A stretch of 37,778 nucleotides of DNA from a virus. Below are positions 6,081 through 25,043 of this stretch, one piece after another; position 1 is the stretch's first letter, and each line of letters begins with the position of its first letter. The notes below the pieces were generated by a model. That model was not told the DNA's origin, made no database searches, and saw only the letters and a program-made list of their open reading frames with translations. Both the position numbers and the translations under genes were made by a program. The stretch lies in the IMG/VR virus record IMGVR_UViG_3300033143_003673, positions 1 through 37,778 of that record. The stretch is one strand, 5' to 3'.

Positions 6081-6673
6081 CCCATGTTGTCCTTCAGGGC
6101 CTTCTGCACCTTGGTGCTCACCTTGTACTTGGTGCGAAGGTTCTTCAGCAGTTCGTCAATGCCCAACTCCTTGTTGGCCACCACGTACTTGAGCACCTTC
6201 GACCAGTTCTCGTCGTCGACCTCGAGCGAGATGCGCTGCTTTGGCTCTTTAGAGGGGGCCTCCTTGACCTCGGACGGCTGCGATGGAACATCTTCGCCCG
6301 TCCATAGAGATAGGCCGAGGCCGTGCATCGCAATAGCCTTAGCGGTGGCGCGTTGGATGGCCTTGTTGACGTCCATGCTGGTCACCTTCTCCACCGAGAT
6401 GGAGTTGTTGCGGTAGTCCATGACCGGGAGCATGTCGATATGCTCGATGTCATTGACCACAATGCCGACCTTGACGTAGCAGGTGCGACCGTCGGTGAAA
6501 TAGTTGAGCCCAGTGTGCTCGCTCTCGTAGACGATGCGTTGGGCTTGAGGGTAGAGCTGCTTGAGCATGTGCCATGCCTGAGCCCACGACAGGTAGTCGA
6601 GGTTGCCCTTGCGCTCCACCTTGGGGCGCACGTCGATGCCACTGAGGTGGCCGTAAACTGACTCGTGTTTCAT
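6077..6673 (-). CDS. DUF1071-type single-strand annealing protein, 198 aa
   Basis: The N-terminal two thirds match the DUF1071 family of Rad52-like phage annealing proteins: KGNLDYLSWAQAWHMLKQLY near the start, HTGLNYFTDGRTCYVKVGI, MDYRNNSISVEKVTSMDVN, then NKAIQRATAKAIAMHGLGLS, which is the most diagnostic stretch. The C-terminal 60 residues are a helical extension (IDELLKNLRTKYKVSTKVQK) of unclear role. It anneals complementary single strands made by the adjacent exonuclease and would drive recombination-dependent replication or repair. Coupled by 4-bp overlaps on both sides. Confidence 0.88.
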   Translation of the reverse strand: MKHESVYGHLSGIDVRPKVERKGNLDYLSWAQAWHMLKQLYPQAQRIVYESEHTGLNYFTDGRTCYVKVGIVVNDIEHIDMLPVMDYRNNSISVEKVTSMDVNKAIQRATAKAIAMHGLGLSLWTGEDVPSQPSEVKEAPSKEPKQRISLEVDDENWSKVLKYVVANKELGIDELLKNLRTKYKVSTKVQKALKDNMG

Positions 6674-6957
6674 TTGAGTTGGTTAATTAGAGTGGTGTAG
6701 TCTGGGTCGTTGGCGATGTGTTCTTCCACGCGCTTCAGACCATGAGCGATGGAAGGTAAGTCGATAGCGTATCCGTTCTCCGTCATGTACCGCTTGATGT
6801 AGGTGTTGGTCATCGGACGCTCCTTGCACAGGTAGTACAGCATGTGGCGGGCGTCAACTACGTCACGCGATTTGTCTTTGGCGAACAGTCGCTCTCGGGG
6901 GATGTCGAATCGGGCGCTGACCCGCTCGACATAGTCTTCGAAAATGTCTCGTTTCAT
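6670..6957 (-). CDS. DnaA domain IV-like protein, 95 aa
   Basis: Most of the protein resembles the C-terminal DNA-binding domain of DnaA: SRDVVDARHMLYYLCKERPM aligns with the basic loop and helices of domain IV, and LPSIAHGLKRVEEHI aligns with the HTTV-x-A-x-x-I signature helix, with Ser-Ile-Ala-His in place of HTTV. No ATPase domain. It is distinct in sequence from the similar protein at the left edge. It may bind DnaA-box-like sites at the phage origin or titrate them. Four-bp overlaps link it to the annealing protein and the DUF3846-like gene. Confidence 0.7.
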   Translation of the reverse strand: MKRDIFEDYVERVSARFDIPRERLFAKDKSRDVVDARHMLYYLCKERPMTNTYIKRYMTENGYAIDLPSIAHGLKRVEEHIANDPDYTTLINQLK

Positions 6958-7190
6958 TCGAGTTCGTCGGTTAGAATAGCGGTGCCGACAAGGTGCCGGC
7001 CCGCAATGTTAGATGCAGTCATGTTGGTAGGCAAGCCAAGAAGCAAGCCCTCCTCGTTGACTACGATGAATTGTTTTCCGGGGAGGTAGACAAGCTCAAT
7101 CAAGCCGCCGACTACCTGCTGGAGGTCATGCAAGGAGAGCGGTCCTTCAACCGTCTCCCTGCTACCATCGAGGTGTAGAATCTCTATCAT
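6954..7190 (-). CDS. DUF3846-like protein, 78 aa
   Basis: The protein starts MIEILHLDGSRETVEG and carries DLQQVVGGLIELVYLPG, then VNEEGLLLGLPTN-MTASNIAGRHLVGTAI. This is the layout of DUF3846, a small beta-rich family common in phages and mobile elements with no settled function. I took ATG at 7190, which overlaps the preceding TGA by one base (TGATG), rather than a longer in-frame opening that would read out of frame through the ParB-like gene. Confidence 0.75.
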   Translation of the reverse strand: MIEILHLDGSRETVEGPLSLHDLQQVVGGLIELVYLPGKQFIVVNEEGLLLGLPTNMTASNIAGRHLVGTAILTDELE

Positions 7191-7912
7191 CAGAAGAACC
7201 TTGTGTGCTTGCGCTTTTTGTGATTGTACACCTGCTCGAACATCCGCATGTACTCCTGCGTGGTTCCGGCGTGCATGAACATGTGGGGGTTCATCTCCGC
7301 CTTCTTCAGCAACTCCTTCCAATTAAAGCCTTCGACGGTGCGGATGCACCGCAGGAAGGCGGTGATGAAGTTGTTGTTCAGGAAGAACGGCCAACGGCTG
7401 AAGGCGCTGATGGCATACAGCCTAGCGTAGGCGTCGTCACGCTTGGCGCGGAACTCCCACGTCCCCCCACCGAGGTTCATCCCGTTGCGGCCTGACGATT
7501 GAGAGCTACTGCCTTGTGCAATGTGCGCCGCAGACCGGACCGAAAACTTCGGGTGTACCTCTCGGCACTCGGCATGGAACTCAAGCAGCTTGATGTAGTG
7601 CTCGTTGCCCTGCGCCGCATAGCTTTTGACCTTGTCCATGATGGTCCAAGACTTGCTTGCGTTGTTGAGCTTGACCACATCCGCGATGTCCATGGCGTCA
7701 CGGACGATGTATTGGATGGGGATGCCGAGCTCTCGGCACGCATGGAAGCGGTGCTGTCCGTCGATGATGGTCCCGTCAGCGGTGACGATGATGGGTTGGA
7801 CGAGTCCGAGTTCGCTGATGTTCTTCTTCAGCCTGCGGATTTGAGTGGCATCGACGCCACGGTTCAGCTCGTTGAAGTCGAACTGAGAGTAATTACTTGT
7901 TGTGTGAATCAT
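7190..7912 (-). CDS. ParB/Srx-like domain protein, 240 aa
   Basis: Residues about 10-75 form a ParB N-terminal-like domain: TQIRRLKKNISELGLVQPII, then ADGTIIDGQHRFHACRELGI with the GQHR motif (52-55) that in this superfamily binds nucleotide. The remaining 165 residues have no recognised motif but contain FSRWPFFLNNNFITAFLRC and helices. Phages carry many such ParB-like proteins, some with nuclease, kinase or DNA-modification roles, and nothing here points to plasmid partition: there is no ParA and no parS-like iterons beside it. Start taken at 7912 (MIHTTSNYSQ), inside the last 20 bp of the upstream gene. Confidence 0.78.
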   Translation of the reverse strand: MIHTTSNYSQFDFNELNRGVDATQIRRLKKNISELGLVQPIIVTADGTIIDGQHRFHACRELGIPIQYIVRDAMDIADVVKLNNASKSWTIMDKVKSYAAQGNEHYIKLLEFHAECREVHPKFSVRSAAHIAQGSSSQSSGRNGMNLGGGTWEFRAKRDDAYARLYAISAFSRWPFFLNNNFITAFLRCIRTVEGFNWKELLKKAEMNPHMFMHAGTTQEYMRMFEQVYNHKKRKHTRFF

Positions 7913-8387
7913 AGTCGAGAATGTATTCGGTGATGGCATTGAATTGTCGGGCTGCATGGATGTCGTAGTCGCAGTCGGGGTAGCTTTGGCTACGCATCCA
8001 ATCCCGGAATCCGTGCATGTTGTACCCAATGCGCTGGATGCTGTCGGTGAACGCTCGGTAAAAGGTGGTGATGAACCCGTCCTCCAAAGCGTTGCAGAAC
8101 CCGTTGTTGTAGTACTCATACTGAAGGCGACCCAAGGCACGGATGGCCTCGCCATACGGCGTGTCGGCCTCGCCGCTTGCCGGGACGTGCTTGTCCCACA
8201 GGGCGTCCCACTCCGCCTGTCGGGGGTGGTTGCCGTCCCACAGGGTAGGTTCGGTCAGTTGGATGGTCAACAGACCGTCCTCGTAACCGTGTGACTCCGG
8301 CGTAACAATCTTGCCGTCGATAAGGAAGCGAACCTTTTTTGTGTCAGGGTGTCGCTCAATCACCCTGTTCCATTCTTTCAAGAACAT
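7893..8387 (-). CDS. Hypothetical protein, 164 aa
   Basis: Family not recognised. The N-terminal part has a beta-rich segment (KKVRFLIDGKIVTPESHGYE) and the C-terminal part is helical and aromatic (LGRLQYEYYNNGFCNALEDG, YNMHGFRDWMRSQSYPD). No membrane segment. It overlaps both the ParB-like gene (20 bp) and the upstream 63-aa gene (32 bp), so it belongs to the same transcript. Confidence 0.7.
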   Translation of the reverse strand: MFLKEWNRVIERHPDTKKVRFLIDGKIVTPESHGYEDGLLTIQLTEPTLWDGNHPRQAEWDALWDKHVPASGEADTPYGEAIRALGRLQYEYYNNGFCNALEDGFITTFYRAFTDSIQRIGYNMHGFRDWMRSQSYPDCDYDIHAARQFNAITEYILDYDSHNK

Positions 8388-8547: not shown

Positions 8548-9046
8548 TGTACTCGTCGTCGTAAGGGATGTGTGCATACTCGCCCGCCTCGCGCATACTC
8601 CAGAACTCGTTGGGCGCACCCGGCATACGATTGTGCTCCTCGAGATACAGGGGGGTGTCGTAATTCGACAGGTCGTACACGGCGCTCTCAGTCATCTCTG
8701 CCTCGGCATGGTCGAGAGCTTTGTGATGGAAGTAACTGTGTCGTGCTAGGCTCATGATGAGCTTGTCGCCAAGGCGGGTAATGACTACGCCGTAGTCGCA
8801 CGTGTCGTGGCCACGCTTGAAGGCCAAGTCCTCAGCCAATCGCATCATGCGGGTCCAGTGCTCGAAAGCATCTTGGGTGAATGCATGCTTGATGTCAAGC
8901 TGTGCCTCGTTGGGTTCGCGGACACCGTGGATGTATCCGCTCATGGTCGCGCCTTGGAAGACGTCGCACTTGGTCATACAGATACCGAAGGCCACGGCGT
9001 GGCCAACGGTTTCTGCGTAGTTGCGGGATTGACGTGTCATCTTCAT
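8522..9046 (-). CDS. Hypothetical protein, 174 aa
   Basis: Family not recognised. The chain starts MKMTRQSRNYAETVGHAVAF and includes a His-rich stretch (ARHSYFHHKALDHAEAEMTE) and an acidic C-terminal third. The helix FGICMTKCDVFQGATMSGYI is fairly hydrophobic but interrupted by charged residues, so a membrane role is unlikely. Joined by a 4-bp ATGA overlap to the gene upstream. Confidence 0.7.
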   Translation of the reverse strand: MKMTRQSRNYAETVGHAVAFGICMTKCDVFQGATMSGYIHGVREPNEAQLDIKHAFTQDAFEHWTRMMRLAEDLAFKRGHDTCDYGVVITRLGDKLIMSLARHSYFHHKALDHAEAEMTESAVYDLSNYDTPLYLEEHNRMPGAPNEFWSMREAGEYAHIPYDDEYNVQSKRAV

Positions 9047-9249
9047 GATACAAGCTCTGCAATGCCGCCGTCACCGATGTCTGTGCCGAGGTAGTCACGG
9101 ACACCCTCCGGACCGTAGTCGTGGTAGATGACAGCCAGCTCGTAAATCTTGGTGACCGGAATGGACGCGGGGTCGACACCACAGCCACGCAAGAACGCAA
9201 CACAGGAGATAGCGGAATCTTGGATTCTCTTCTTGTAGTCGTCACTCAT
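9043..9249 (-). CDS. Hypothetical protein, 68 aa
   Basis: Small protein beginning MSDDYKKRIQDSAISCVAFL. It contains a possible helical DNA- or protein-binding segment and VTKIYELAVIYHDYGPEGV. Family unknown. Its ATG lies one base after the ATTAATCCGGATTAAT palindrome at 9251-9266, so translation begins immediately beside the repeat. No Shine-Dalgarno sequence can fit. Confidence 0.65.
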   Translation of the reverse strand: MSDDYKKRIQDSAISCVAFLRGCGVDPASIPVTKIYELAVIYHDYGPEGVRDYLGTDIGDGGIAELVS

Positions 9250-9250
9250 G

Positions 9251-9266
9251 ATTAATCCGGATTAAT
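9251..9266. repeat. Gene-junction palindrome ATTAATCCGGATTAAT, copy 1
   Basis: A perfect 16-bp palindrome. On the minus strand it supplies the last codons and stop of the 128-aa gene (Ile-Asn-Pro-Asp-stop), ends one base before the next ATG, and so occupies the whole gene junction. Confidence 0.85.
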
Positions 9267-9638
9267 GACCTCGTCAATCACGTCGTCGGTGATGACCACA
9301 TCGCCGAACTGAATGTTGTCGGCGTAGGTGTCGCCCTCAATCCAAACCTGACCGCTGTAGTCCCAGCGTAGCCCGTCAGAGTGTCCGTCAATCTCGACGT
9401 ACGGCTCGATGTCCGGACACTCGAAGTTCTCCTGCTGTGCCTCGGCACCCATGACAAAGAACTTGCGGGCCAAGGCACGCAACTGCTCGGTGGAGAGGGA
9501 TGGTTGTTGAACGGCCTCGATACTGCGGATGCAGGCTTTGACCTCTAAGAGTTGTGCCTCGATGGCCTTGATGGCCTCGTTGGCTTCGGCCAAGTTGGCC
9601 TCGGTGGTCTTGACGACCGGGTGATTGGATTGTTCCAT
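9252..9638 (-). CDS. Hypothetical coiled-coil protein ending in INPD, 128 aa
   Basis: Residues about 10-45 form a strong amphipathic helix (ANLAEANEAIKAIEAQLLEV), probably a coiled coil. The rest is acidic with a beta-type strand (LRWDYSGQVWIEGDTYADNI) and DVVITDDVIDEVINPD at the end. I chose ATG at 9638, 15 bp downstream of the predicted transcription start region of promoter 9660-9690; a longer opening reads across that promoter. The last residues INPD and the stop are encoded by the palindromic repeat. Family unknown. Confidence 0.7.
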   Translation of the reverse strand: MEQSNHPVVKTTEANLAEANEAIKAIEAQLLEVKACIRSIEAVQQPSLSTEQLRALARKFFVMGAEAQQENFECPDIEPYVEIDGHSDGLRWDYSGQVWIEGDTYADNIQFGDVVITDDVIDEVINPD

Positions 9639-9659
9639 GATTGGATTGTAATTGATGTT

Positions 9660-9690
9660 GCAATATAAGGAATATATTAGTGGCTTGCAA
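9660..9690 (-). promoter_or_regulatory. Bacteroidota-type promoter, copy A
   Basis: On the minus strand TTG (9690-9688), 20 bases, then TATATTGC (9667-9660). The TATTCCT just before the -7 element is shared with copy B. The spacing equals that of the copies at 13079-13109 and 16135-16165 and resembles the Bacteroidota TTTG-N19/20-TAnnTTTG pattern. The first gene start is 22 bp downstream. Confidence 0.7.
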
Positions 9691-9804
9691 CTTGTTCCAC
9701 TGTTAATGTTCGGAAGTGCGTCAACTTTTTTACGCCCTTCGGTAGTCGTGCTGAGTATGAACCCCACGGACAGAACCATGTGTGTACCACAGTCCTGTTA
9801 CCGC

Positions 9805-9824
9805 GCTCGTCTGCTCCGACGAGC
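9805..9824 (-). terminator. Hairpin after the 81-aa gene
   Basis: GCTCGTC-TGCTCC-GACGAGC forms a 7-bp stem 13 bp past the stop at 9838. No T-run follows on the minus strand, so it is at best a weak or factor-dependent terminator. It lies between the 81-aa gene and promoter copy A, where a transcript end would make sense. The rest of the 199-bp gap (9639-9837) holds only the promoter. Confidence 0.35.
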
Positions 9825-9837
9825 TGCCTGTTGTGGC

Positions 9838-10083
9838 TTACTTGAAAGCGTCCCATACCTCATCGGGTAATTGTTCACGGCATGCCGTGTCCATGTTGCG
9901 GATGTAGTTGCGTATCTCTTCGTCACTTGCGTGGCGTCGAAGTAGGGGGGACAGGCCACGGATGTTGGCTACGTCACCGCATAGGTCTTCCCATCCGTTG
10001 CGCCTATTGGTATCGGCCATGCGCTTGGCCCGGTCACGGCACAACTGTGCCATGTGGTTGTCGAGGTGTTTCGTTCGTGTCAT
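9838..10083 (-). CDS. Hypothetical basic protein, 81 aa
   Basis: Family not recognised. Arginine-rich N-terminal half (LCRDRAKRMADTNRRNGWED) followed by ISGL-type segment ANIRGLSPLLRRHASDEEIR and a short acidic tail. Predicted helical. It is the last gene of its transcription unit, followed by a hairpin and then a new promoter for the genes further left. Confidence 0.65.
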   Translation of the reverse strand: MTRTKHLDNHMAQLCRDRAKRMADTNRRNGWEDLCGDVANIRGLSPLLRRHASDEEIRNYIRNMDTACREQLPDEVWDAFK

Positions 10084-10093
10084 GATTCCTTGG

Positions 10094-10588
10094 TTATGTC
10101 AGTGAATGTCTTTTGCGGGGAATGGTGGATTTTGGGTAGTACACCTTGAGCAAGAAACGAGAGTTGCAGTACTGGTTTTCCAGACGGGCAAGACGTGCCT
10201 CGGCTTCCTCCTGTTTCTTTTGCTGTTCCTCGTACCAAAATTCTCCGTCTGGGTCGCTACCCCATTCGTCGCCGGGATACAAGTCGCATATCCAATTTGG
10301 ATGGTGTTTATCAATAAGGTCGGTGTCCTTCTTCTCGATTAGTCTCAGTGTGTCATGGTTCCAAGGTGGTTGGCTTTTGGCGGCAAAGGCTTCCTGTTTC
10401 AGGATGCACCACTTGAGGATGGTGCGGGCATGACCTGAGTGGACTGAGTCGATGATGGGGAGCAGGTCGGGCCGCTTCCACTTTCGGACGAACCACCGCG
10501 CCGCATTGTAGACGTAGGTGATGTCCATCTCGTCGATGTCCAGCGTTGCGCGGCGGGTGGTGTAGTATACGGGGCCGATGTCCATCAT
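10094..10588 (-). CDS. Hypothetical protein, 164 aa
   Basis: Family not recognised. The first third has YNAARWFVRKWKRPDLLPII, a likely helix, and HARTILKWCILKQEAFA. The C-terminal part has a Gln/Glu/Lys helix (YEEQQKKQEEAEARLARLEN), probably a short coiled coil. Starts with two methionines; the ATG at 10588 overlaps the upstream stop by 4 bp. Confidence 0.68.
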   Translation of the reverse strand: MMDIGPVYYTTRRATLDIDEMDITYVYNAARWFVRKWKRPDLLPIIDSVHSGHARTILKWCILKQEAFAAKSQPPWNHDTLRLIEKKDTDLIDKHHPNWICDLYPGDEWGSDPDGEFWYEEQQKKQEEAEARLARLENQYCNSRFLLKVYYPKSTIPRKRHSLT

Positions 10589-11268
10589 TCTTCAATCCAT
10601 TTGAGGTCAGTGCAGTTGTTGATGGTCTCGTTGGTGTCGGGCCCCCACCGGCAAACGGTGAAGGGCTGGCCGTGCTCGAGGTAGGTACGCGCCTCGTCCT
10701 CGTCCATGCACCTGTTGTACTCTTCGTTCCATAGCATGTCCATGTAGCTCTCGTCGAGGTAGAACAACCGCGATGCGGCATACCCACCACGTACATCGGC
10801 ACCGCCGTGAACGCTGATGAGGACGTACGGGTCGTCACCAATGGTCAGGTGCTGGTACTGGAACACTTGGTCCAAGCAGTCGCTGTCGTTGTAGGTGTTG
10901 TAGCACCGCTCGTCGTCGATGTCTGCGTCCCACTCCATTAGCTTCTGATAGCACTGCTCGGTGGTGAAGGCAAGGTCGTCGCACCAAGGGTCGGCGCTGT
11001 CGATGAGAGCATTGAACTCCTCGGCCCGCTCGTCCTCCTCAATGTTGGCGCCCATCAGCCAATGGTATAGGGTGATGGTCGGGATGATGTCACGATACCT
11101 GACCGTGCCGTCCTCGTTGTAGTTCATGTTCACCTCGAAGGTGATGGGCTCCTCCGACTCGAAGTCGCGGAACTGATTGCGTTGCCAACGCCTACCGTTG
11201 GCGCCGCCGCTGTCCATGGGATGCTTGCCCGTGTTCTCGAGAAGCATGGATTTGATTGTGTCTTTCAT
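10585..11268 (-). CDS. Conserved phage protein of unknown function, 227 aa
   Basis: The N-terminal signature LLENTGKHPMDSGGANGRRW, followed by QRNQFRDFE, is one I recognise from many phage genomes (an E-N-T-G-x3-x-DSGGAxGRxWxRN pattern) without a known activity. The middle is acidic with ITLYHWLMGANIEEDERAEE and YQHLTIGDDPYVLISVHGGA, then GYAASRLFYLDE. Cytoplasmic by composition. Linked by ATGA overlaps on both sides. Confidence 0.78.
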   Translation of the reverse strand: MKDTIKSMLLENTGKHPMDSGGANGRRWQRNQFRDFESEEPITFEVNMNYNEDGTVRYRDIIPTITLYHWLMGANIEEDERAEEFNALIDSADPWCDDLAFTTEQCYQKLMEWDADIDDERCYNTYNDSDCLDQVFQYQHLTIGDDPYVLISVHGGADVRGGYAASRLFYLDESYMDMLWNEEYNRCMDEDEARTYLEHGQPFTVCRWGPDTNETINNCTDLKWIEE

Positions 11269-11429
11269 GTTTCGTTGAAGTGGTTGTTATACATTTCGTC
11301 AATCGCTTCATCGCTATCACCCTCAAGGGACTCTGCGATGGTCTCGTAGACGTAGTGGTACATGGTCTTCCAATCCATGCCGTCGATAACGCTGTCGATG
11401 TAGCGTTCGATTTTCTCTTCTCGTGTCAT
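11265..11429 (-). CDS. Hypothetical acidic protein, 54 aa
   Basis: A short gene beginning MTREEKIERYIDSVIDGMDW and ending DEAIDEMYNNHFNET. It fills the space between two genes and overlaps each by 4 bp (ATGA), the pattern used throughout this operon, which is the main reason to believe it. Acidic and helical, family unknown. Confidence 0.65.
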   Translation of the reverse strand: MTREEKIERYIDSVIDGMDWKTMYHYVYETIAESLEGDSDEAIDEMYNNHFNET

Positions 11430-11653
11430 TGCTTTATGTATAAGTTTCCTGATTCGAGTTCTCGTTGTGAACCGTAGGCGGTAGTGATGTAGTACCCTAG
11501 CAAAGTCGGATTCACCATGTATACGAAGCAGTACAGGTGGTCGCCCGCAGGGAAGCCGACATCCTCATGCTCGGATAGTCTGCCCCACTCGGCGTGTTCA
11601 GAGACTTGGATGTCACCAAAATCCTTGGTCTTGATTGTCTTAGGTATGGTCAT
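11426..11653 (-). CDS. Hypothetical protein, 75 aa
   Basis: Beta-rich small protein: TIKTKDFGDIQVSEHAEWGR, then VGFPAGDHLYCFVYMVNPTL, then LLGYYITTAYGSQRELESGN. No membrane or signal segment. Coupled by 4-bp overlaps to both neighbours. Family unknown. Confidence 0.65.
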   Translation of the reverse strand: MTIPKTIKTKDFGDIQVSEHAEWGRLSEHEDVGFPAGDHLYCFVYMVNPTLLGYYITTAYGSQRELESGNLYIKQ

Positions 11654-12024
11654 GAGCAGATTCCGTGACAGAGTTGAACGTCAGTGTTGTACTCCCGCAA
11701 GCCCGTCTCCGGGTTGAGCTTGTCAACGAACACGTTGTATTGCCACCGGTCCTCGACGATGAAGATGTTGACGGCGATGTAGCCAATGCTGAACCACGTG
11801 TCACTGCATGGCTCCATAGGCGGTACATCAATACGCCCAAGGACAGGGCTGATGATTTGCTTGGGGAAGGCGGACAACTGCAAGTGCCACTTGAGATGGT
11901 CGACAACGTCACGCACGGTGGTGTCGCCGATGGGTTCGTCCATGAGGCTGAGGCTACTGTCGAGCCAAGCCTCGAGAGCGCAGATGTTGGTGAGCGCGTC
12001 AGAATTGGGTGCTGAGGATTGCAT
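11650..12024 (-). CDS. Hypothetical protein, 124 aa
   Basis: Family not recognised. I used ATG at 12024 (MQSSAPNSDALTNICALEAW), which lies in the 3' end of the upstream 53-aa gene; an extension upstream is in the wrong frame there. Middle segment TVRDVVDHLKWHLQLSAFPK looks helical, followed by a beta-rich half (WFSIGYIAVNIFIVEDRWQY). Confidence 0.65.
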   Translation of the reverse strand: MQSSAPNSDALTNICALEAWLDSSLSLMDEPIGDTTVRDVVDHLKWHLQLSAFPKQIISPVLGRIDVPPMEPCSDTWFSIGYIAVNIFIVEDRWQYNVFVDKLNPETGLREYNTDVQLCHGICS

Positions 12025-12160
12025 TGAGATGGAGTTGATTGGTGATTGAGTTCCTGCCCTTGTCTTTCTTGATGAGGCCCCGCACATCGGAGTTCTCGTA
12101 GGCAACACGAGGGTCGATGTTGTGCTCATTGCACAGGGAGATGAATGTGTTGGCGGTCAT
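11999..12160 (-). CDS. Small paralog family protein, 53 aa
   Basis: Short protein beginning MTANTFISLCNEHNIDPRVA, followed by YENSDVRGLIKKDKGRNSIT and ILSTQF. It resembles a type of small phage protein with an N-terminal helix, a D-P-x-x-A-x-E-N turn and a second helix. The C-terminal 30 residues align with an out-of-frame stretch at about 13947-14040 (DRVRALIDRCDGRESIKDQL), so this operon contains two members of the family. ATGA overlap with the upstream gene; 26-bp overlap with the next. Confidence 0.65.
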   Translation of the reverse strand: MTANTFISLCNEHNIDPRVAYENSDVRGLIKKDKGRNSITNQLHLNAILSTQF

Positions 12161-12411
12161 GATTTCAGTTCATGGAAGTTGGGTAGGGATTGCATCTTGT
12201 TGGGGTGGTCGTCGCATAGGGTACTCTTGTACTGCACCTCGATGATGCGCTCGGCACACTCGTAGATGTTGGCGAGAAGACACCCCACGTCAGCACCGTT
12301 GAGGTCGGTGTCCAAGTCTTGAACGCGCTTGGGTATTGCTTGGAGGAGACGGCGCACGTCTTCTTGGATTGCGAGGGACGCCTCGTAGGGGTTCATGATT
12401 TCGATAGCCAT
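12157..12411 (-). CDS. Hypothetical helical protein, 84 aa
   Basis: Starts MAIEIMNPYEASLAIQEDVR, then LLQAIPKRVQDLDTDLNGAD and ECAERIIEVQYKSTL. Predicted helical and soluble. Family unknown. Its ATG overlaps the upstream TGA by one base (TGATG). Confidence 0.65.
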   Translation of the reverse strand: MAIEIMNPYEASLAIQEDVRRLLQAIPKRVQDLDTDLNGADVGCLLANIYECAERIIEVQYKSTLCDDHPNKMQSLPNFHELKS

Positions 12412-12695
12412 CAGTTGTTGATTTTGAATACGCTGTTGAGGAAGTCAGATGTCATAGGGCGGGAGCACTCCTCCTGTTGTGCCCACTTGAGGATGTCCTT
12501 GCACCGCCAATACTCAGCGAAGTGTTTCTTCTTGCGCTCGATGCTTCTGATGTGCTTGTGCAGGGAGACCTGAATCTCACGCAGTTGGTGGTCGTCGTAG
12601 TACGAGAGCAGTTCTCGTGCCTCGGCCTCGTCGCACTTGAGGAGGGGCTTGGCCCGTAGCTCGGCGATGCGAGCGTCAATCTCTTGGTCGGTCAT
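12411..12695 (-). CDS. Hypothetical coiled-coil-like protein, 94 aa
   Basis: Start at 12695 gives MTDQEIDARIAELRAKPLLK. The middle is a long charged helix (EAEARELLSYYDDHQLREIQ, then HKHIRSIERKKKHFAEYW), suggesting a coiled coil. The longer in-frame opening upstream is His/Arg/Pro-rich and reads the neighbouring gene out of frame. Family unknown. Confidence 0.65.
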   Translation of the reverse strand: MTDQEIDARIAELRAKPLLKCDEAEARELLSYYDDHQLREIQVSLHKHIRSIERKKKHFAEYWRCKDILKWAQQEECSRPMTSDFLNSVFKINN

Positions 12696-13030
12696 GCGTT
12701 CCGAAGGGCTTGGATGATGGACTCGTAGATGGCATCGAGTTGGTCGGCAACCTTGGTGGCGTTGCCCTTGACCCCGTAGTATTTCTTGAGGTCGGTGATG
12801 CGCCAATGACGTGTTGGCTTCATGCCGATGGTGGCATACGAACGGGCATACCGACGTTGGAAGGTCAACTGCAACAGCGAGCGGTATTGGTCAGCACTCT
12901 TGCTCGTGCCGTCGTTCTCGATGTAACCGACGTTGGTGACTCGGCGCTCGGCAACGTCACGCTCGAGCTGTTCGAAGAAGGGGGCCGAAGCATCGACGCC
13001 CTTGGGAGGGGTGTAATGGATTGTAGTCAT
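12692..13030 (-). CDS. Hypothetical protein, 112 aa
   Basis: Family not recognised. Contains RSLLQLTFQRRYARSYATIG and KPTRHWRITDLKKYYGVKGN, the latter a possible helix-turn-helix-like segment. The ATG at 13030 directly abuts an 18-bp version of the palindrome (AATTAATCCGGATTAATT), leaving no room for a ribosome binding site other than the repeat itself. It is the first gene after promoter copy B. Confidence 0.68.
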   Translation of the reverse strand: MTTIHYTPPKGVDASAPFFEQLERDVAERRVTNVGYIENDGTSKSADQYRSLLQLTFQRRYARSYATIGMKPTRHWRITDLKKYYGVKGNATKVADQLDAIYESIIQALRNA

Positions 13031-13048
13031 AATTAATCCGGATTAATT
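13031..13048. repeat. Gene-junction palindrome, copy 2 (18 bp)
   Basis: AATTAATCCGGATTAATT, the longest perfect version of the repeat. It lies immediately before the ATG of the 112-aa gene and 31 bp downstream of the -7 element of promoter copy B. Confidence 0.85.
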
Positions 13049-13078
13049 GGCAGGATTGCCTTGTAATGAATTGATAGC

Positions 13079-13109
13079 GCAATATAAGGAATAACTTCCA
13101 TACTTGCAA
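13079..13109 (-). promoter_or_regulatory. Bacteroidota-type promoter, copy B
   Basis: On the minus strand TTG (13109-13107), 20 bases, TATATTGC (13086-13079). The flanks GATTTCTTACT upstream and GCTATCA downstream are shared with copy C, and TTGCAAG and TATTCCT with copy A. It sits in the 103-bp gap downstream of the RadC gene and drives the 112-aa gene and those to its left. Confidence 0.72.
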
Positions 13110-13133
13110 GTAATTAGTAAGAAATCTTTGGGT

Positions 13134-13577
13134 TCAAAGCAGATTTAGTTCGGCGAAGCTGTTCCACTTGTCCGAGGTGACGATGATGTGGTCGAGCATG
13201 GCGATGTCAAGTAGCTTGCCCCCGTCCTTGAGGGTGCGGGTCAAGTTCTTGTCTGCCATACTCGGAGATGGGTTGCCACTCGGGTGGTTGTGGGAGCAGA
13301 TGAACGCCGCGCAGTTGTCGAGCAACAGCCGACTGAACACAAGCTTGGGGTCCACGACACAGCCCGCACAGCCGCCGGCGCCGACCTCGAAGCACGAGCG
13401 TATCTTGTTGGAGCGAGATATGCCGACGATGAAGAACCTCTCCCGAACCTCAAGGTCTGGGTCGTACAAGGGGCGAAGGAACTTCACCAAGTCGATGGCC
13501 CTCGAAACCTTCGGGCCGTCAGGTTCTGTCCTGTTGTAGGTGAGCGCCAACTCACCGGCTTTCCAATCGTAGTTCAT
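13134..13577 (-). CDS. radC: RadC-like JAMM/MPN domain protein, 147 aa
   Basis: The C-terminal half contains a complete JAMM metal-binding signature, SHNHPSGNPSPSMADK: His96, His98, Ser106 and Asp109 in H-x-H-x7-S-x2-D spacing. It is followed by LLDIAMLDHIIV, the strand typical of RadC. The N-terminal helix-hairpin-helix of chromosomal RadC is absent; mobile elements usually carry this short form. RadC-like proteins are frequent in phages and conjugative elements of Bacteroidota; their biochemical role is unsettled, despite an old link to DNA repair. Last gene before the promoter B gap, coupled to the gene upstream. Confidence 0.9.
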   Translation of the reverse strand: MNYDWKAGELALTYNRTEPDGPKVSRAIDLVKFLRPLYDPDLEVRERFFIVGISRSNKIRSCFEVGAGGCAGCVVDPKLVFSRLLLDNCAAFICSHNHPSGNPSPSMADKNLTRTLKDGGKLLDIAMLDHIIVTSDKWNSFAELNLL

Positions 13578-13798
13578 AGCGCATCGGTGTTGTCCATGTA
13601 TTCAAGGGTGTCCTCGATGTGCTTGGAGATTTGGTGCATGAGGGTCTCGTTGTCCTCGAACGTGGCAATGAGTACACGCTCAAGGGTGGCTTGGTCCAAG
13701 TCGTAGTCAAGGCGTTGAGCGATACACTCCACTTCCTCGACACTCCACTTGAGTTCGGGTCCGGTGTAGAACCCTTCGGGGTCAATAGGTTTATTCAT
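13574..13798 (-). CDS. Hypothetical acidic protein, 74 aa
   Basis: Begins MNKPIDPEGFYTGPELKWSV, then VECIAQRLDYDLDQATLERV and a helical acidic tail HQISKHIEDTLEYMDNTDAL. Family unknown. ATGA overlaps on both sides place it in the RadC transcript. Confidence 0.65.
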   Translation of the reverse strand: MNKPIDPEGFYTGPELKWSVEEVECIAQRLDYDLDQATLERVLIATFEDNETLMHQISKHIEDTLEYMDNTDAL

Positions 13799-13950
13799 GG
13801 CTTGAATATTTCAGGGAATGCCTCGACAAGGCGAGGCTTGTTGGTGTTGTCAGCTTTGAAGAATGCATCAATGATGGCGGCGTTGAACGACCCGCCCATC
13901 TTGGCGGAATCGCTCAATCGGTTGTAGTTCTCTTGGGTGTTCCACGTCAT
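13795..13950 (-). CDS. Small conserved phage protein, 51 aa
   Basis: Start at 13950 gives MTWNTQENYNRLSDSAKMGG, followed by SFNAAIIDAFFKADNTNKPR and LVEAFPEIFKP. This S-x-x-A-x-x-GGSF ... A-D-x-x-NKPRL-x-x-AFPE-x-F pattern is a recurrent small phage protein that I know by sequence but not by function. The longer in-frame opening upstream lies over another gene. Confidence 0.7.
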   Translation of the reverse strand: MTWNTQENYNRLSDSAKMGGSFNAAIIDAFFKADNTNKPRLVEAFPEIFKP

Positions 13951-14080
13951 GACTTGAATTCTTGAGTGAGGATGCCGTTCAGTTCGAGTTGGTCCTTGAT
14001 ACTCTCCCGACCATCGCAACGGTCGATGAGGGCACGGACCCTGTCGTTCTTGAACGCGTCAGGGAAAGCATGATGATGAA
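13947..14080 (-). pseudogene. Out-of-frame paralog of the 53-aa gene, lacking an in-frame start
   Basis: In the -1 frame relative to the ATG at 14134, the minus strand encodes HAFPDAFKNDRVRALIDRCD and GRESIKDQLELNGILTQEF, ending in a TGA that overlaps the next ATG (ATGA). It aligns with the C-terminal half of the 53-aa protein at 11999-12160. No ATG, GTG or TTG occurs in this frame after the preceding stop near 14162. Either a one-base indel has broken the gene, a -1 frameshift joins it to the start at 14134, or a non-standard start is used. No classical slippery heptamer was seen. Confidence 0.45.
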
Positions 14081-14134
14081 CATGCCGACGAACCCAATCA
14101 GGGCTACGCGGAGGATGATACTTGTGAAACTCAT
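13979..14134 (-). CDS. Possible small membrane protein, 51 aa, or 5' part of a frameshifted gene
   Basis: The ATG at 14134 overlaps the preceding TGA (ATGA), as most starts here do. It yields MSFTSIILRVALIGFVGMFI, continuing IMLSLTRSRT: one hydrophobic segment of about 20 residues. The remainder (serine/threonine/arginine-rich, TGSVPSSTVAMVGRV) looks like out-of-frame reading, and the stop at 13979 leaves a gap before the next start. The -1 frame over the same region carries a more convincing protein. Confidence 0.4.
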   Translation of the reverse strand: MSFTSIILRVALIGFVGMFIIMLSLTRSRTTGSVPSSTVAMVGRVSRTNSN

Positions 14135-14532
14135 GGCAGGAGGGTGTCGATTGTCTTAATCATACTTTCAACGTCGTCGGTGTTCCATCCTTCTACGGCC
14201 CGGAACGTACACAGCTCGTCGAGCATTCCTATCAGGGATTGCTTGAGTTCCAAGCGCCGGGCATACTCCGCCGCTTGCTCGGCGGCGAGCAACAGCTCGT
14301 CGACGGGATAGATGAATACAATGGTGGCCGCCCCGTATGGCATCCACGCGTCGTCGTGTAGATACCGGCCCCGGCAACCCGTGAAGCCAACTAATTCTCT
14401 CGCTTTGCGCCACACCTGACTGTCGGTGGCGTCGTCAGGAACGGTGAACGTATGCCGCTCAACACGGCTGTAGTTGCCGCTCCATTGGTAGCCATCGTGG
14501 ATGGCGTCGGTACTCTCAACTGTATAGGTCAT
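14131..14532 (-). CDS. Hypothetical protein, 133 aa
   Basis: Family not recognised. N-terminal half beta-rich with WSGNYSRVERHTFTVPDDAT and CRGRYLHDDAWMPYGAATIV. C-terminal half helical (ELLLAAEQAAEYARRLELKQ). Overlaps the gene upstream by 17 bp and the following start by 4 bp. Confidence 0.68.
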   Translation of the reverse strand: MTYTVESTDAIHDGYQWSGNYSRVERHTFTVPDDATDSQVWRKARELVGFTGCRGRYLHDDAWMPYGAATIVFIYPVDELLLAAEQAAEYARRLELKQSLIGMLDELCTFRAVEGWNTDDVESMIKTIDTLLP

Positions 14533-14737
14533 CGAACATCTCTTTTGCGCGGCCCATCAGTCGGTGCCACAGGTGAGGCTCCACGAGGAGCAGCTTGTCC
14601 TTGTTCTCTTCGAGCCACGCGTCCTTGCTCTCGGCCATCTGTTGAAGGCCGATGCGCAACGCTTGGTCGAAGACGCCGGGCAGGATAGGATGCTCCTTCG
14701 CCGCCTCGTCCATGAGTTTGGATAGTGGGTGTTTCAT
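14516..14737 (-). CDS. Hypothetical helical protein, 73 aa
   Basis: Begins MKHPLSKLMDEAAKEHPILP and continues QALRIGLQQMAESKDAWLEE. Predicted all-helical and soluble. Family unknown. ATGA overlap with the gene upstream. Confidence 0.65.
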   Translation of the reverse strand: MKHPLSKLMDEAAKEHPILPGVFDQALRIGLQQMAESKDAWLEENKDKLLLVEPHLWHRLMGRAKEMFDDLYS

Positions 14738-15414
14738 TGTATTGTCCCTCGTTTGTTGGTTTGGAACATGGGGGTGAGGAAGCCCATCTTCTCTAATTCA
14801 AAAGGTCTGATGAGTCGGCACATACGCTTGGCATGCTCGATGTCGTCGGTGTTGGCGCGGTAGTATTGGTTGCCCACTAACTCTCCGGCAAAGCGGAACA
14901 CGATGTCCTTGGTTCGCTCGTTGTGTTGCAACTCCATAAACCACGCACGCTTGCCGAGTACGTTGTTCTCCCGAAGCCACTCCTTGGTGAAGACTTCTTT
15001 GTTGCGTAGGCAACTGCGGATGTGACTGTTGTACCACACGACGCGGTAATAGGTATCACCACTGATACCTGAGTCGAAGCGGTCACCCCGGTCTCGATAC
15101 GCTCTCGCGCCCTCGATGGCCTCGGTGTCGTCGGCATAGCAGACGTAGACGAAAGGGTACGGCTTGCCCTGCCTGCCTTGGTCACCAATCCATATCGCCA
15201 CGCCGTCCCTACGCTTGTAAGTGGTGGGGCAGATGATGGTGCAGGTGAACTCCTCGTCAGCCTTACTGCGAGAAATGGCACGTTGCATAGCCTCGTTGCA
15301 GGTGAAGATGTCGTAGCCGTGGTCGTCCTCAACGTCGCCGTGGAGGTATGACCACGCGGCACGGAACTTGCCTCGGTGTATGTTGTCGAAGGTGGTGGGG
15401 TATACTATCCGCAT
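14734..15414 (-). CDS. Hypothetical protein, 226 aa
   Basis: Family not recognised. Mixed alpha/beta, with FTCTIICPTTYKRRDGVAIW and YPFVYVCYADDTEAIEGARA suggesting a beta-sheet core, and a C-terminal helical region (HAKRMCRLIRPFELEKMGFL). No membrane segment. It follows the phosphatase-like gene with a 1-bp TGATG overlap. Confidence 0.7.
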   Translation of the reverse strand: MRIVYPTTFDNIHRGKFRAAWSYLHGDVEDDHGYDIFTCNEAMQRAISRSKADEEFTCTIICPTTYKRRDGVAIWIGDQGRQGKPYPFVYVCYADDTEAIEGARAYRDRGDRFDSGISGDTYYRVVWYNSHIRSCLRNKEVFTKEWLRENNVLGKRAWFMELQHNERTKDIVFRFAGELVGNQYYRANTDDIEHAKRMCRLIRPFELEKMGFLTPMFQTNKRGTIQ

Positions 15415-15893
15415 CAGAACTCTCCTTTGTCACGTGGTACCACTTGGATGCAGTCGATGCCGTTGGCCCGCCACATATCGACAACCTGATTGCGGTCGTC
15501 GTAAACCCTCTCGATGAGGTCTTCGCCACCCTTGCGGATGTTGTCCAACAACTCTTGCTTGAACACGTTGTCGGGGCGATAGTCCCCGTCCTTGCGCATA
15601 TAGAGCGCGTCGTAGTGGATGCCGTACTGCGCGAGCCACTGCTCGGTCACGTCCCTGTTCTTGTCGTTGCGGGCAGAGACGATGACGATGTGTTTGCCCC
15701 GCTCTCGCCAGTCCCTGAGGACACTGACCACCAACTCGTTGGGTACGTCGAGACGCAGGATGTTGTCGGGGTTCTGCCACGCCGCCCACCACGCTTGGCG
15801 TTCGTTGCTTGGGTATGGGGCCTGTGCTTCGTCTGCCGCTTGGCGTCTGCGGTCGACGTTGGCAATGGTGCCGTCTAAATCGAATAGAATCAT
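15414..15893 (-). CDS. HAD-superfamily polynucleotide 3'-phosphatase-like protein, 159 aa
   Basis: The protein looks like the C-terminal phosphatase domain of T4 polynucleotide kinase. It has FDLDGT with Asp5 and Asp7, IVSAR with Ser73, a Lys in VFKQELL (112), and YDDRNQVVDMWRANGIDCIQ near residues 131-150, very like the DDR-QVVxMWR motif of the T4 enzyme. The N-terminal kinase domain is absent. It probably removes 3'-phosphates from nucleic acid ends, which in T4 allows RNA ligase to repair cleaved tRNA; no ligase is visible here. The ATG lies two bases after a palindrome copy. Confidence 0.82.
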   Translation of the reverse strand: MILFDLDGTIANVDRRRQAADEAQAPYPSNERQAWWAAWQNPDNILRLDVPNELVVSVLRDWRERGKHIVIVSARNDKNRDVTEQWLAQYGIHYDALYMRKDGDYRPDNVFKQELLDNIRKGGEDLIERVYDDRNQVVDMWRANGIDCIQVVPRDKGEF

Positions 15894-15895
15894 GG

Positions 15896-15909
15896 TTAAT
15901 CCGGATTAA
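15896..15909. repeat. Gene-junction palindrome, copy 3
   Basis: TTAATCCGGATTAA, perfect over 14 bp. On the minus strand it encodes the last codons and stop (Asn-Pro-Asp-stop, preceded by Ile) of the 58-aa gene and ends two bases before the phosphatase ATG. Confidence 0.85.
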
Positions 15910-16072
15910 TTGTGCGTGTCGAAAGCTCGTCCCTGACTGCGTTGCGCAGTTCAAGGAACTCAGGCGAGAGCCAACCCTCGCACTTGTCTGCCATCTCTGA
16001 TATGGCTGTCAACTCTTCAGTCGGTAGGCGCTTAGCCGCTCGCTTGCAAATGTTGTAGTGTGGTGTGCTCAT
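15896..16072 (-). CDS. Hypothetical protein ending in INPD, 58 aa
   Basis: Begins MSTPHYNICKRAAKRLPTEE, then LTAISEMADKCEGWLSPEFL and ends STRTINPD. Helical, soluble, family unknown. The C-terminal INPD and stop are encoded by the palindrome, exactly as in the unrelated 128-aa gene at 9252-9638. The ATG is 4 bp after another palindrome copy. It is the first gene after promoter copy C. Confidence 0.68.
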   Translation of the reverse strand: MSTPHYNICKRAAKRLPTEELTAISEMADKCEGWLSPEFLELRNAVRDELSTRTINPD

Positions 16073-16076
16073 CTGA

Positions 16077-16092
16077 ATTAATCCGGATTAAT
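16077..16092. repeat. Gene-junction palindrome, copy 4
   Basis: ATTAATCCGGATTAAT, perfect 16 bp, 4 bp upstream of the 58-aa gene start and 43 bp downstream of the -7 element of promoter copy C. Confidence 0.85.
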
Positions 16093-16134
16093 CGGCTCCG
16101 GGTGCCGCCTATTTGTTCCTTGAATAATGATAGC

Positions 16135-16165
16135 GCAATATACGTAGATTATATGGATATTACAA
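16135..16165 (-). promoter_or_regulatory. Bacteroidota-type promoter, copy C
   Basis: On the minus strand TTG (16165-16163), 20 bases, TATATTGC (16142-16135), flanked by GATTTCTTACT upstream and GCTATCA downstream as in copy B. It would drive the 58-aa gene, the phosphatase and the operon to the left. Confidence 0.72.
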
Positions 16166-16207
16166 GAAATAAGTAAGAAATCTGCATGGGGTAAGTGCAG
16201 GTTTTTC

Positions 16208-16280
16208 GCGTCCCTGACTCGGAGCGTGGGAAGCGTCCCTGACCCGCACTCGCAGAGCGAGCGCGTCCCTGACTCGGAGC
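16208..16280. repeat. Iteron-like direct repeats GCGTCCCTGACTCGGAGC
   Basis: An 18-bp unit occurs at 16208-16225 and 16263-16280, with a shorter third copy (GCGTCCCTGAC, then CCG) at 16233-16245. The inverted pair CTCGC-AGA-GCGAG lies between them (about 16250-16260). They are in a gene-free stretch upstream of promoter copy C. Possibilities are an activator binding array or an origin-type iteron cluster. Confidence 0.6.
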
Positions 16281-16310
16281 AGGGGAACGAAGGGAGAGGG
16301 AGGGCCGGGG

Positions 16311-16325
16311 TTAATCCGGATTAAT
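16311..16325. repeat. Palindrome, copy 5
   Basis: TTAATCCGGATTAAT, one base short of the full 16 bp, between the iteron-like repeats and the terminator of the 211-aa gene. This copy is not beside a start codon. Confidence 0.8.
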
Positions 16326-16345
16326 CAGAGCAGAAACAACGGGGC

Positions 16346-16380
16346 AAAAAAATACCCCGCACCGGGTAGGTGCGGGGTAT
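16346..16380 (-). terminator. Rho-independent terminator of the 211-aa gene
   Basis: On the minus strand a perfect 12-bp stem, ATACCCCGCACC-TACCC-GGTGCGGGGTAT, is followed by seven T residues. It lies 17 bp past the stop of the gene at 16398-17033, which is therefore a single-gene transcript isolated from the operon to the left. Confidence 0.92.
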
Positions 16381-16397
16381 ATGGGGGGCGCGGGGCC

Positions 16398-17033
16398 TTA
16401 GGCGTTGACCGGGGCGGGGATGATGATTTCCACACCACACTCGGCCGCCAATTCTTCGATGCATTCGAGGAAATTAGCTCGGGCCGTGTCGCCGAATCTG
16501 AGAGGCACCGTAATCGTCACGCGGTTGGTGTCCTTGCCTTTCGTGACCGTCGTATGAGTCCGCTCAGGTGCCGGGCCGGCTTTTTCGGTGGCCTTAGCCG
16601 CGGCCGCTTGTGCCTTGGCTTCATCCAAGACAACCGGCTGACCGGATGCCTTCGGCACCTTTTGGCCGGCTACATGCTTGGCGTAGGCTTGTACCCCGGC
16701 CTTGGCCTTAAGGCCGTCTGCCGTGGTCACCTTGCCGCTTTTCACGTTTCGGTTGAACGTTTCGAGGCCCTTAGCCGTTGCGTTGTTCCGCACCAATAGC
16801 TTCCCTTCGGATGCCATTGGCGGGATTGATTCGGGGGCCAACCCCGCGGCCTTGGCGAGACGGGGGGCCTCCTTTTTCAACTCCTTTTTATTCTCTTCGC
16901 ACCAAATGGCGAAGATTCCAAGGGAGAAACGCAAATCGAAAGCGGCCGAACGGGCCGCGGCTCCTTGAGCCTTAATCGTTGCAACGTCTGTGGATTGTCC
17001 ACCTTTGGTGGCGAATTGGGTTTTGCTGTTCAT
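16398..17033 (-). CDS. Hypothetical alanine/lysine-rich protein, 211 aa
   Basis: No recognised family. The N-terminal part holds DLRFSLGIFAIWCEENKKEL, a likely helix; the centre is rich in Ala and Lys (VLDEAKAQAAAAKATEKAGP); the C-terminal 50 residues look like a compact alpha/beta domain (NRVTITVPLRFGDTARANFL, then ECGVEIIIPAP). Codons are visibly richer in GGG, GCC and CCG than in the genes to its left. It is the first minus-strand gene next to the divergent region and ends in its own strong terminator, so an early or separately regulated transcript is plausible. Confidence 0.68.
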   Translation of the reverse strand: MNSKTQFATKGGQSTDVATIKAQGAAARSAAFDLRFSLGIFAIWCEENKKELKKEAPRLAKAAGLAPESIPPMASEGKLLVRNNATAKGLETFNRNVKSGKVTTADGLKAKAGVQAYAKHVAGQKVPKASGQPVVLDEAKAQAAAAKATEKAGPAPERTHTTVTKGKDTNRVTITVPLRFGDTARANFLECIEELAAECGVEIIIPAPVNA

Positions 17034-17077
17034 AGCAGTTGTATATAGTAGTGGGTGGCCCCCCTTTCGGGGGCCGG

Positions 17078-17093
17078 ATTAATCCGGATTTAT
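17078..17093. repeat. Degenerate palindrome, copy 6
   Basis: ATTAATCCGGATTTAT, with a mismatch in the right arm, 45 bp upstream of the 211-aa gene. The overlapping CCGGATTAATCCGG is also palindromic. Confidence 0.65.
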
Positions 17094-17193
17094 TATTTCA
17101 GCATTTCAAAGAACGGCCCCTGCCGTTGCAGGGATGACAAGTGTACGAATACTTTTTGAATTCGCAAAGAATACAAGGGGCAATTCGGGGCGG

Positions 17194-17209
17194 TTATTCC
17201 GGATTAATT
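17194..17209. repeat. Degenerate palindrome, copy 7
   Basis: TTATTCCGGATTAATT keeps the TCCGGATTAA half and loses symmetry in the left arm. It is the rightmost copy seen. Confidence 0.55.
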
Positions 17210-17583: not shown

Positions 17584-17743
<160 letters not shown>

Positions 17744-19370: not shown

Positions 19371-19618
19371 GAAAATACATTGTCCTCCAGCCCATCGAAG
19401 AGGAGGTGACGACAGAGAGCGGCTTGTTGCTTAGCGGTGAGGACACCAGCCAGTTGCGATATGCTCGCGGCAAGGTTGTGGCAGCGGGCACGGATGTCGA
19501 AGCCATCCACGCTGATGAGGAGCTATACTACGACAAGCGCAGTGCGTACTCTATGATGATTGAGGATGTTAAGTACACCATCATCTCTGAGCGCGATGTT
19601 GTCGTTGTGCTTCATTGA
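19358..19618 (+). CDS. groES: GroES-type co-chaperonin, 86 aa
   Basis: The protein starts MRPIGKYIVLQPIEEEVTTE, matching the first strand of Cpn10. SGLLLSGED is at the position of the mobile loop whose hydrophobic tripeptide (IVL in bacteria) docks on GroEL. RGKVVAAGTD and ISERDVVVVLH match the central and last strands. At 86 residues it is slightly shorter than the usual 95-100. The gene order GroEL, small gene, GroES suggests a dedicated pair. Its last 38 bp overlap the 3' end of the convergent minus-strand gene. Confidence 0.88.
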   Translation: MRPIGKYIVLQPIEEEVTTESGLLLSGEDTSQLRYARGKVVAAGTDVEAIHADEELYYDKRSAYSMMIEDVKYTIISERDVVVVLH

Positions 19619-20003
19619 TTTGCATCATCACCTGCTTGTACATCTTGTCGGTGAATGAGCAGTCTCGCCTGAATACGGGGTTGTTCTGCGCCTCCATGGG
19701 ATACTCTTTTCCTTCGAGCAGGGCGTAGGCGTACCCTATTACGCGCTTGGCTTTGTAGGTCAGGTTGTATACCCCTAGCCTCGACTTAGACTCTACGGAC
19801 ACTTTCTCTACCCATCCGTTTTTGACGAGGCGGTTGAAGCGGTCTTTGTCCCACGAGAAGGTCTTGTCGAACTCTTTGAACTTGGCTCGGGTGAAGTAGG
19901 GCTCATCGTAGAGGAAGATGAGCATCTCTAGGTCGGGCTGGGAGATGCCGTATTTGGCATTGATGAAGTATCGGACGACCCTCCAGTACTTTAGATAGTT
20001 CAT
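19581..20003 (-). CDS. Winged-helix-like protein against the direction of the right arm, 140 aa
   Basis: Start at 20003 gives MNYLKYWRVVRYFINAKYGI, then SQPDLEMLIFLYDEPYFTRA, FKEFDKTFSWDKDRFNRLVK and NGWVEKVSVESKSRLGVYNL. The helix-helix-turn-helix followed by a KNGWVEKV beta wing resembles MarR-like winged helices. I recognise this MNYLKYWRVVRY type from other Bacteroidota phages, without known function. It is the only minus-strand gene of the right arm, convergent with GroES and divergent from the basic protein at 20032 with 28 bp between starts. It could be a late regulator; that is inference. Confidence 0.72.
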   Translation of the reverse strand: MNYLKYWRVVRYFINAKYGISQPDLEMLIFLYDEPYFTRAKFKEFDKTFSWDKDRFNRLVKNGWVEKVSVESKSRLGVYNLTYKAKRVIGYAYALLEGKEYPMEAQNNPVFRRDCSFTDKMYKQVMMQINEAQRQHRAQR

Positions 20004-24894: not shown

Positions 24895-25043
24895 GCTGTT
24901 TGACGACTTGGACCCCAGAGACGCAGGAGGACTGCATTGACATCGAGCGCCTTGCTGCCGTCATCACGGAGATTGACGACAAACTGCACGACATCCTCGA
25001 GCGCCTTGAGGCCCTTGAAGGCGTCGGTAAAGCCTCAAAATAA
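24891..25043 (+). CDS. Small coiled-coil-like protein, 50 aa
   Basis: MSCLTTWTPETQEDCIDIER, then LAAVITEIDDKLHDILERLE and ALEGVGKASK: one acidic amphipathic helix. ATGA overlap upstream and TAATG overlap downstream. Its last 20 bp (25024-25043) were copied together with the start of the next gene in the duplication that produced 26080-27081. Confidence 0.62.
   Translation: MSCLTTWTPETQEDCIDIERLAAVITEIDDKLHDILERLEALEGVGKASK

Follow-up and report, generated by a model that had tools for sequence, protein, structure and literature searches.

We have analysed a stretch of viral DNA of 37,778 nucleotides (IMG/VR record IMGVR_UViG_3300033143_003673), called the window below, in which a palindrome, ATTAATCCGGATTAAT, is repeated at gene junctions of a leftward operon. 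The window is part of a Bacteroidota-type podovirus, and a second record, G001, is the same phage in permuted form; together the two span about 61 kb. The genes of the window include those for a BT4734-like primase, a Sak annealing protein, an exonuclease, RadC-like and PNKP-type proteins, GroEL and a portal protein, and the primase and portal protein have their relatives in podoviruses of Flavobacterium, Cellulophaga and Maribacter. The closest annotated record is MW202828, a podovirus of 60.85 kb assembled from Manatee Spring. The leftward operon has four promoter-like sites in total, which we take to be of the Bacteroidota type. These sites, the palindrome copies and the gene of a candidate regulator are located as follows.

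9251-9266, minus strand: palindrome, exact; contains the stop codon of the open reading frame (ORF) 9252-9779; 1 nt 5' of the ATG of 9043-9249
9661-9690, minus strand: promoter-like site of the same type as the next; palindrome-free interval to its gene
13032-13047, minus strand: palindrome, exact; preceded at about 33 nt by a promoter-like site and followed after 1 nt by the ATG of 12692-13030
13080-13109, minus strand: promoter-like site TTG-N20-TATATTG; palindrome 13032 just downstream
15895-15910, minus strand: palindrome, one mismatch in 16, inner 14-mer exact; contains the stop codon of 15896-16072; followed after 1 nt by the ATG of the PNKP-type phosphatase gene 15414-15893
16077-16092, minus strand: palindrome, exact; preceded at about 44 nt by a promoter-like site and followed after 4 nt by the ATG of 15896-16072
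16136-16165, minus strand: promoter-like site TTG-N20-TATATTG, start of the leftward operon; flanked by two palindromes
16310-16325, minus strand: palindrome, one mismatch in 16; follows the end of gene 16398-17033 and precedes the next promoter-like site by 145 bp
16398-17033, minus strand: gene of a 211-residue protein, candidate palindrome-binding regulator; relatives only in phages with a TTAATCCGGATTAA array
17078-17093, minus strand: palindrome, with one arm of the dyad interrupted by the single mismatch; follows the promoter-like site of 16398-17033 and precedes the ATG of that gene by 44 nt; a perfect match in the relatives G002 and G003
17138-17167, minus strand: promoter-like site TTG-N19-TACACTTG of gene 16398-17033; a palindrome on either side
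17193-17208, minus strand: palindrome, two mismatches; precedes the promoter-like site of 16398-17033 by 26 bp and the next start by 159 nt; 14-mer exact in G002 and G003

When up to three mismatches are allowed, the palindrome occurs seven times in the window, always within 9.25-17.2 kb and nowhere else in it, and the inner 14-mer TTAATCCGGATTAA is intact in five of the seven copies. Shuffled windows gave a mean of 0.08 matches and never reached seven. The site is a perfect dyad and is therefore neither asymmetric nor oriented relative to transcription. The repeat and its confinement had been described in an earlier sequence-only reading of this DNA, several of whose start coordinates were off by one base (13032, 15895, 16310 and 17193 are correct). 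That reading had also placed four copies 0 to 4 bases before a start codon, and the minus-strand distances to the ATG are indeed 1, 1, 1 and 4 nt; for copies placed at random within these 8.4 kb the expectation is 0.1, and four were never obtained in 200,000 draws. The copies at 9251 and 15895 double as the coding end of the upstream gene (..I-N-P-D-stop), a terminator-like hairpin stands on the upstream side of the copy at 16310, and G001 holds one extra copy, at 41942. Between two of the palindromes, at 16200-16290, there are GCGTCCCTGACTCGGAGC repeats, and the corresponding stretch of G001 is 51 bp longer (284 versus 233 bp between the sites). Two simple readings of the repeat were rejected. 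With 16 occurrences of the hexamer TCCGGA in the window, a restriction site fails to account for the repeats; among 84,980 bacterial and archaeal genomes, the 16-mer occurs at 50 places, once per stretch and in no multi-copy stretch, which argues against a host factor.

A scan of IMG/VR for the inner 14-mer returned 25 stretches, among which several copies are present only in G001 and G004 (near-identical) and in G002 and G003 (about 70-80% identical). In both G002 and G003, the sites around both promoters are exact in the 14-mer while their flanks have diverged, and in G002 the 14-mer is also exact before the orthologues of 9043-9249 and 15414-15893. Gene 16398-17033 lies directly downstream of the first palindromes in this group. 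An independent protein scan of IMG/VR for relatives of its product found three contigs, namely G004, G003 and G002, and in G001 the contig ends within the gene. The genomes with this protein (the window, G001, G004, G003 and G002) are the same as those with multiple palindromes, and the two co-occur one to one; a tblastn search with the protein against 50,697 phage records gave no match.

Homology between the window and G002 or G003 starts or stops precisely at palindromes (9267, 15911, 16075 and 16076), and gene content therefore switches at these points. Considering these borders, the palindromes could serve mainly as recombination linkers for homology-based swapping of early genes. Genes for a Sak annealing protein and an exonuclease are present, and the repeats of the mycobacteriophage Corndog have mediated deletions (PMC4351075). 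However, gene borders are commonly break points anyway, and linkers would leave unexplained the palindromic form, the sites flanking one promoter and the joint change of all copies with the regulator, which is described below. We give this explanation hardly any probability.

Relatives with the same genes that lack the palindromes had been named as evidence against the sequence-only reading. Other relatives do without this palindrome, yet many carry a different one. We screened 160 loci. A repeated exact palindrome was absent from many of them; a considerable share are fragments, and the screen would overlook imperfect arrays. A different repeated palindrome was found in many of the relatives' lineages, each time in 3-16 copies that mostly lie at junctions of early genes. 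Examples are GTGTCTT-NN-AAGACAC, GAGGGTT-NN-AACCCTC, GGGGGTT-NN-AACCCCC, GTCTGTT-NN-AACAGAC, GTCCGTT-NN-AACGGAC, GCTCGT-NN-ACGAGC, GTTCGGT-N-ACCGAAC (in G023) and GTGTCGTTAACGACAC. The same screen found none in 20 shuffled loci and no array in the first 34 kb of Elemovirus elemoE. When 15 motifs were compared with 18 genomes, the table was diagonal bar four stray copies, the four genomes of the window group having one motif in common. In 17 genomes, 81 of the 147 copies lie outside ORFs of at least 60 residues, compared with 19.6 expected. The palindrome is already different in L184, though its MarR-like protein is 87% identical to that of the window (84% in G003).

Such arrays could also be centromere-like or genome-organising elements of the ParB/KorB type, in which parS-like loading sites would hold, condense or segregate the genome and the nearness to promoters would be incidental. 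The sites of parS, Noc and KorB are palindromes of 12-16 bp. The window encodes a ParB-like protein (7190-8155), the sites of G009 are distributed genome-wide, structural genes included, and the authors of the Corndog study held that most of its sites are not linked to promoters (PMC4351075). On the other hand, the sites of most lineages cluster in the early region and at gene junctions, and a ParB-like gene was not found in G023 and MW202828, both of which have arrays. The protein 7190-8155 was rejected as the ligand on account of these two array lineages. No ParA was noticed, though no search was aimed at ParA. We regard a ParB-type array as unlikely.

Considering that four copies lie 1-4 nt before an ATG, the palindrome might act in mRNA as an initiation enhancer, a hairpin or a processing site, and both a translational element and an RNA processing site had been proposed for it. 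As RNA, the palindrome of the window folds into a hairpin with almost no stability (-0.3 kcal/mol), its stem pair probabilities in context are 0.004-0.07, and an Rfam scan and a search for ribozyme cores found nothing, which does not support a processing site there. Nor is a translational element supported, considering that three of seven copies lie away from starts, among which 17193 is upstream of a promoter-like site, and that the distance from site to start in the relatives ranges from a few to more than 100 nt, other sites being intragenic. In G002 and G003, as in the window, the site equivalent to 17193 precedes the promoter-like site of the regulator gene, which points to DNA as the level of action. 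In favour of RNA, some copies in relatives adjoin hammerhead-like ribozymes, seem to form stem III of one or resemble terminator stems. Taken together, a role of the palindrome primarily in RNA seems to us very improbable.

The hammerhead-like sequences (types I, III and RAGATH-1) are found by or around palindromes at early gene junctions of relatives, and none in the window group.

L200, 5875-5929, 6259-6313 and 7305-7359: hammerhead-like sequences
L214, 15059-15113: hammerhead-like sequence
L207, 15153-15207: hammerhead-like sequence
L213, 18981-19035: hammerhead-like sequence
L264, 4040 and 5202: hammerhead-like sequences
L289, 3044-3090: hammerhead-like sequence

These matches to RF00008 (E 8e-7 to 3e-4) are under the Rfam gathering score, and they come from relatives with GC-rich palindromes. 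Stem III of a hammerhead-like ribozyme in L264 seems to consist of the palindrome. A palindrome is directly followed by a T run at 8598 and 18367 of L264 and at 8496 and 17933 of L289, where the operator-like dyad may also be a terminator stem. We read these ribozyme and terminator roles in relatives as a secondary use of a ready-made dyad. In the cultivated Flavobacterium phage elemoE (L158), sequences like a hammerhead core, recognised by pattern alone, are present on the minus strand at 16355 and 18126.

In the other lineages, the early operon opens with one fast-evolving protein family of about 190-270 residues (20-55% identical), in the position equivalent to that of 16398-17033. The family was detected 56 times in the loci, with 44 unique sequences. 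For 34 of the 48 members with a clear palindrome, a copy lies at most 400 bp upstream of the start, the distance being 5 bp in G009. The AlphaFold model of the L213 member is confident (predicted local distance difference test, pLDDT, 88.6). In it, a long helix comes first, helices 76-84 and 88-99 are arranged as a helix-turn-helix, and the chain continues with a further two helices and a strand-strand-helix unit at the C-terminus. A Pfam search of the family gave no convincing family, and PHROGs gave single weak matches (DNA binding protein, E 0.00018; ParB-like, 0.0035). Sequence and structure searches of the PDB gave no convincing relative, which is not proof of a new fold. A tblastn search with the L213 protein against the 50,697 phage records matched only MW202828; those records thus yielded no isolate of the group that has an array.

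The regulators co-vary with their sites. Residue 93 (L213 numbering) lies in the predicted recognition helix, the second of the helix-turn-helix pair. It is K or R in all 24 proteins whose half-site has C (23) or A (1) at position 4, which is four bases from the dyad, whereas the 12 proteins with G at this position all have D, E, L or S; residue and base are thus concordant in 36 of 36 proteins. On the tree, residue 93 and base 4 each need three parallel changes, always jointly, and two of these fall on strongly supported branches. L234 retains K and GTGTCTT within a supported clade that otherwise has D or E together with G at that base.

Two other helix-turn-helix proteins of the window, a MarR-like protein (19581-20003) and a DnaA_C-like protein (6670-6957), could bind the sites instead. 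Dimers of the MarR type bind palindromes of such size, and both proteins are present in the array lineages that could be checked. However, the core SWD..RF.RL of the MarR-like protein is invariant across lineages with wholly unlike palindromes, and the DnaA_C-like protein is 65% identical to that of the window in G002, which has the same palindrome, and 63% in G009, which has a different one. We consider it rather improbable that either protein is the ligand. The MarR-like winged-helix gene (minus strand) adjoins that of GroES and has relatives in more than 500 IMG/VR stretches.

From these comparisons, we consider that the palindromes are probably operators of a phage-encoded dimeric helix-turn-helix regulator, most likely the product of 16398-17033, and that site and regulator change together by lineage. 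An operator with this product as the candidate binder had been suggested by the sequence-only reading, and it gains support from the one-to-one co-occurrence in IMG/VR, the palindromes flanking its promoter-like site and the family-wide co-variation. Under this model, the regulator would bind several near-identical sites in the early (non-structural) region, located on either side of its own promoter, beside the promoters of the leftward operon and at junctions within the operon. We infer that it binds as a dimer and that its effect is repressive. The sites flanking its promoter suggest autoregulation, by which it would repress its own gene, and those at junctions inside the operon suggest a roadblock that would dampen or block early-operon transcription, as stoperators and SPBRE do elsewhere. 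Every lineage carries a regulator variant and a site peculiar to it, and the pair appears to change jointly. The regulator may serve in an early-to-late shut-off or in interference with co-infecting kin.

Several observations weigh against the operator model. The structure model of 16398-17033 is poor (pLDDT 52), with a helix order similar to that of the L213-type family; blastp detects no homology between this protein and the regulator family of the other lineages, and comparison by hmmsearch and hhalign is in register but weak (E 0.03-0.05, a single comparison), so the profile alignment is suggestive only. Three changes are too few for significance of the residue-base concordance, and columns outside the helix, such as I17, score equally high, which indicates that shared descent contributes to the signal. 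Many copies are distant from promoters or within genes, and in G009 and L184, as exceptions, they are mostly intragenic. The window also encodes the two other helix-turn-helix proteins named above. Finally, no tyrosine integrase or serine resolvase domain was found among nine records examined, so the role of a classical lysogeny repressor is not indicated.

The sequence-only reading knew of no described element of this kind, which was mistaken, considering that start-associated sequences (SAS), the Corndog 17-bp repeats, SPBRE and stoperators have been published. In Corndog (Cluster O mycobacteriophages), TGTTCGG-NNN-CCGAACA of 17 bp is present in 34 copies, and neither a binding protein nor a function is reported for it (PMC4351075). 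Like the present arrays, it is a multi-copy perfect dyad with near-invariant arms and, as in most lineages, a free centre; many copies are intergenic in a non-structural operon and some intragenic, the repeat is absent or rare in host genomes, and there is no integrase. The window array likewise shows perfect inverted arms of 7 bp, many copies, and an intergenic bias with some intragenic sites, but it has seven copies, no spacer and a different sequence, TTAATCCGGATTAA, compared with the 34 copies and NNN centre of Corndog. The core of the G023 palindrome, GTTCGGT-N-ACCGAAC, is nearly that of Corndog. Corndog differs in the host phylum, and no lineage-by-lineage change of sequence has been reported for it.

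Cluster A stoperators are asymmetric, oriented sites of temperate phages bound by a monomer, at which the repressor stops elongation and maintains lysogeny (PMC6550527). They resemble the present arrays in the many copies of one site genome-wide and in the joint divergence of site and repressor between subclusters; the window has the multiple copies but not the asymmetric site in a single orientation. SPBRE is a 15-bp motif of the temperate Bacillus phage SPbeta, whose MrpR has a tyrosine-recombinase fold (PMC10516654). It too is a repeated intergenic site first recognised by sequence, to which the master repressor of the phage itself was afterwards assigned by experiment. The Cluster K SAS is an asymmetric 13-bp sequence, GGGATAGGAGCCC, with a Shine-Dalgarno core, and the associated ESAS inverted repeats differ between subclusters (PMC3203893). 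As in the window, these repeats lie close to the starts of unrelated genes in the non-structural half, in Cluster K 3-7 nt before them, and can contain stop codons, but the window site is a dyad of another sequence that also lies away from starts (four of seven at starts). The window array therefore matches Corndog best in form and is by definition neither a stoperator nor an SAS.

Outside the palindrome region, two features of the window were recorded. In the rightward operon, 25024-26064 and 26061-27104 are a tandem gene duplication with 71% DNA identity, and both proteins start with MTELSRDSKIHTVAAGVDTQDKGSARTNANREAVTV. A (CT)n tract at 17690-17721 lies directly 5' of the GroEL gene, and homology with the near-identical G004 breaks there; it is possibly a variable repeat.

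In summary, the regulator family and its wholesale switching of specificity appear to be new, whereas arrays of this kind are already known. More tentatively, a large group of apparently non-integrating Bacteroidota podoviruses may possess an undescribed regulator family with a self-specific array, in which whole arrays and the regulator are rewritten jointly even among close relatives, as though selection favoured insulation from co-infecting kin; in some lineages the palindrome would double as a hammerhead or terminator stem. Multi-copy phage palindromes of obscure function, in Corndog and others, have had no binding partner. The dozens of lineages studied here are natural regulator-site pairs with different specificities, which makes the ligand, the recognition code and the role in a phage that has no evident integrase directly testable. 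If true, our interpretation would show the re-targeting of a whole site array between close relatives, which is central to phage self-recognition.

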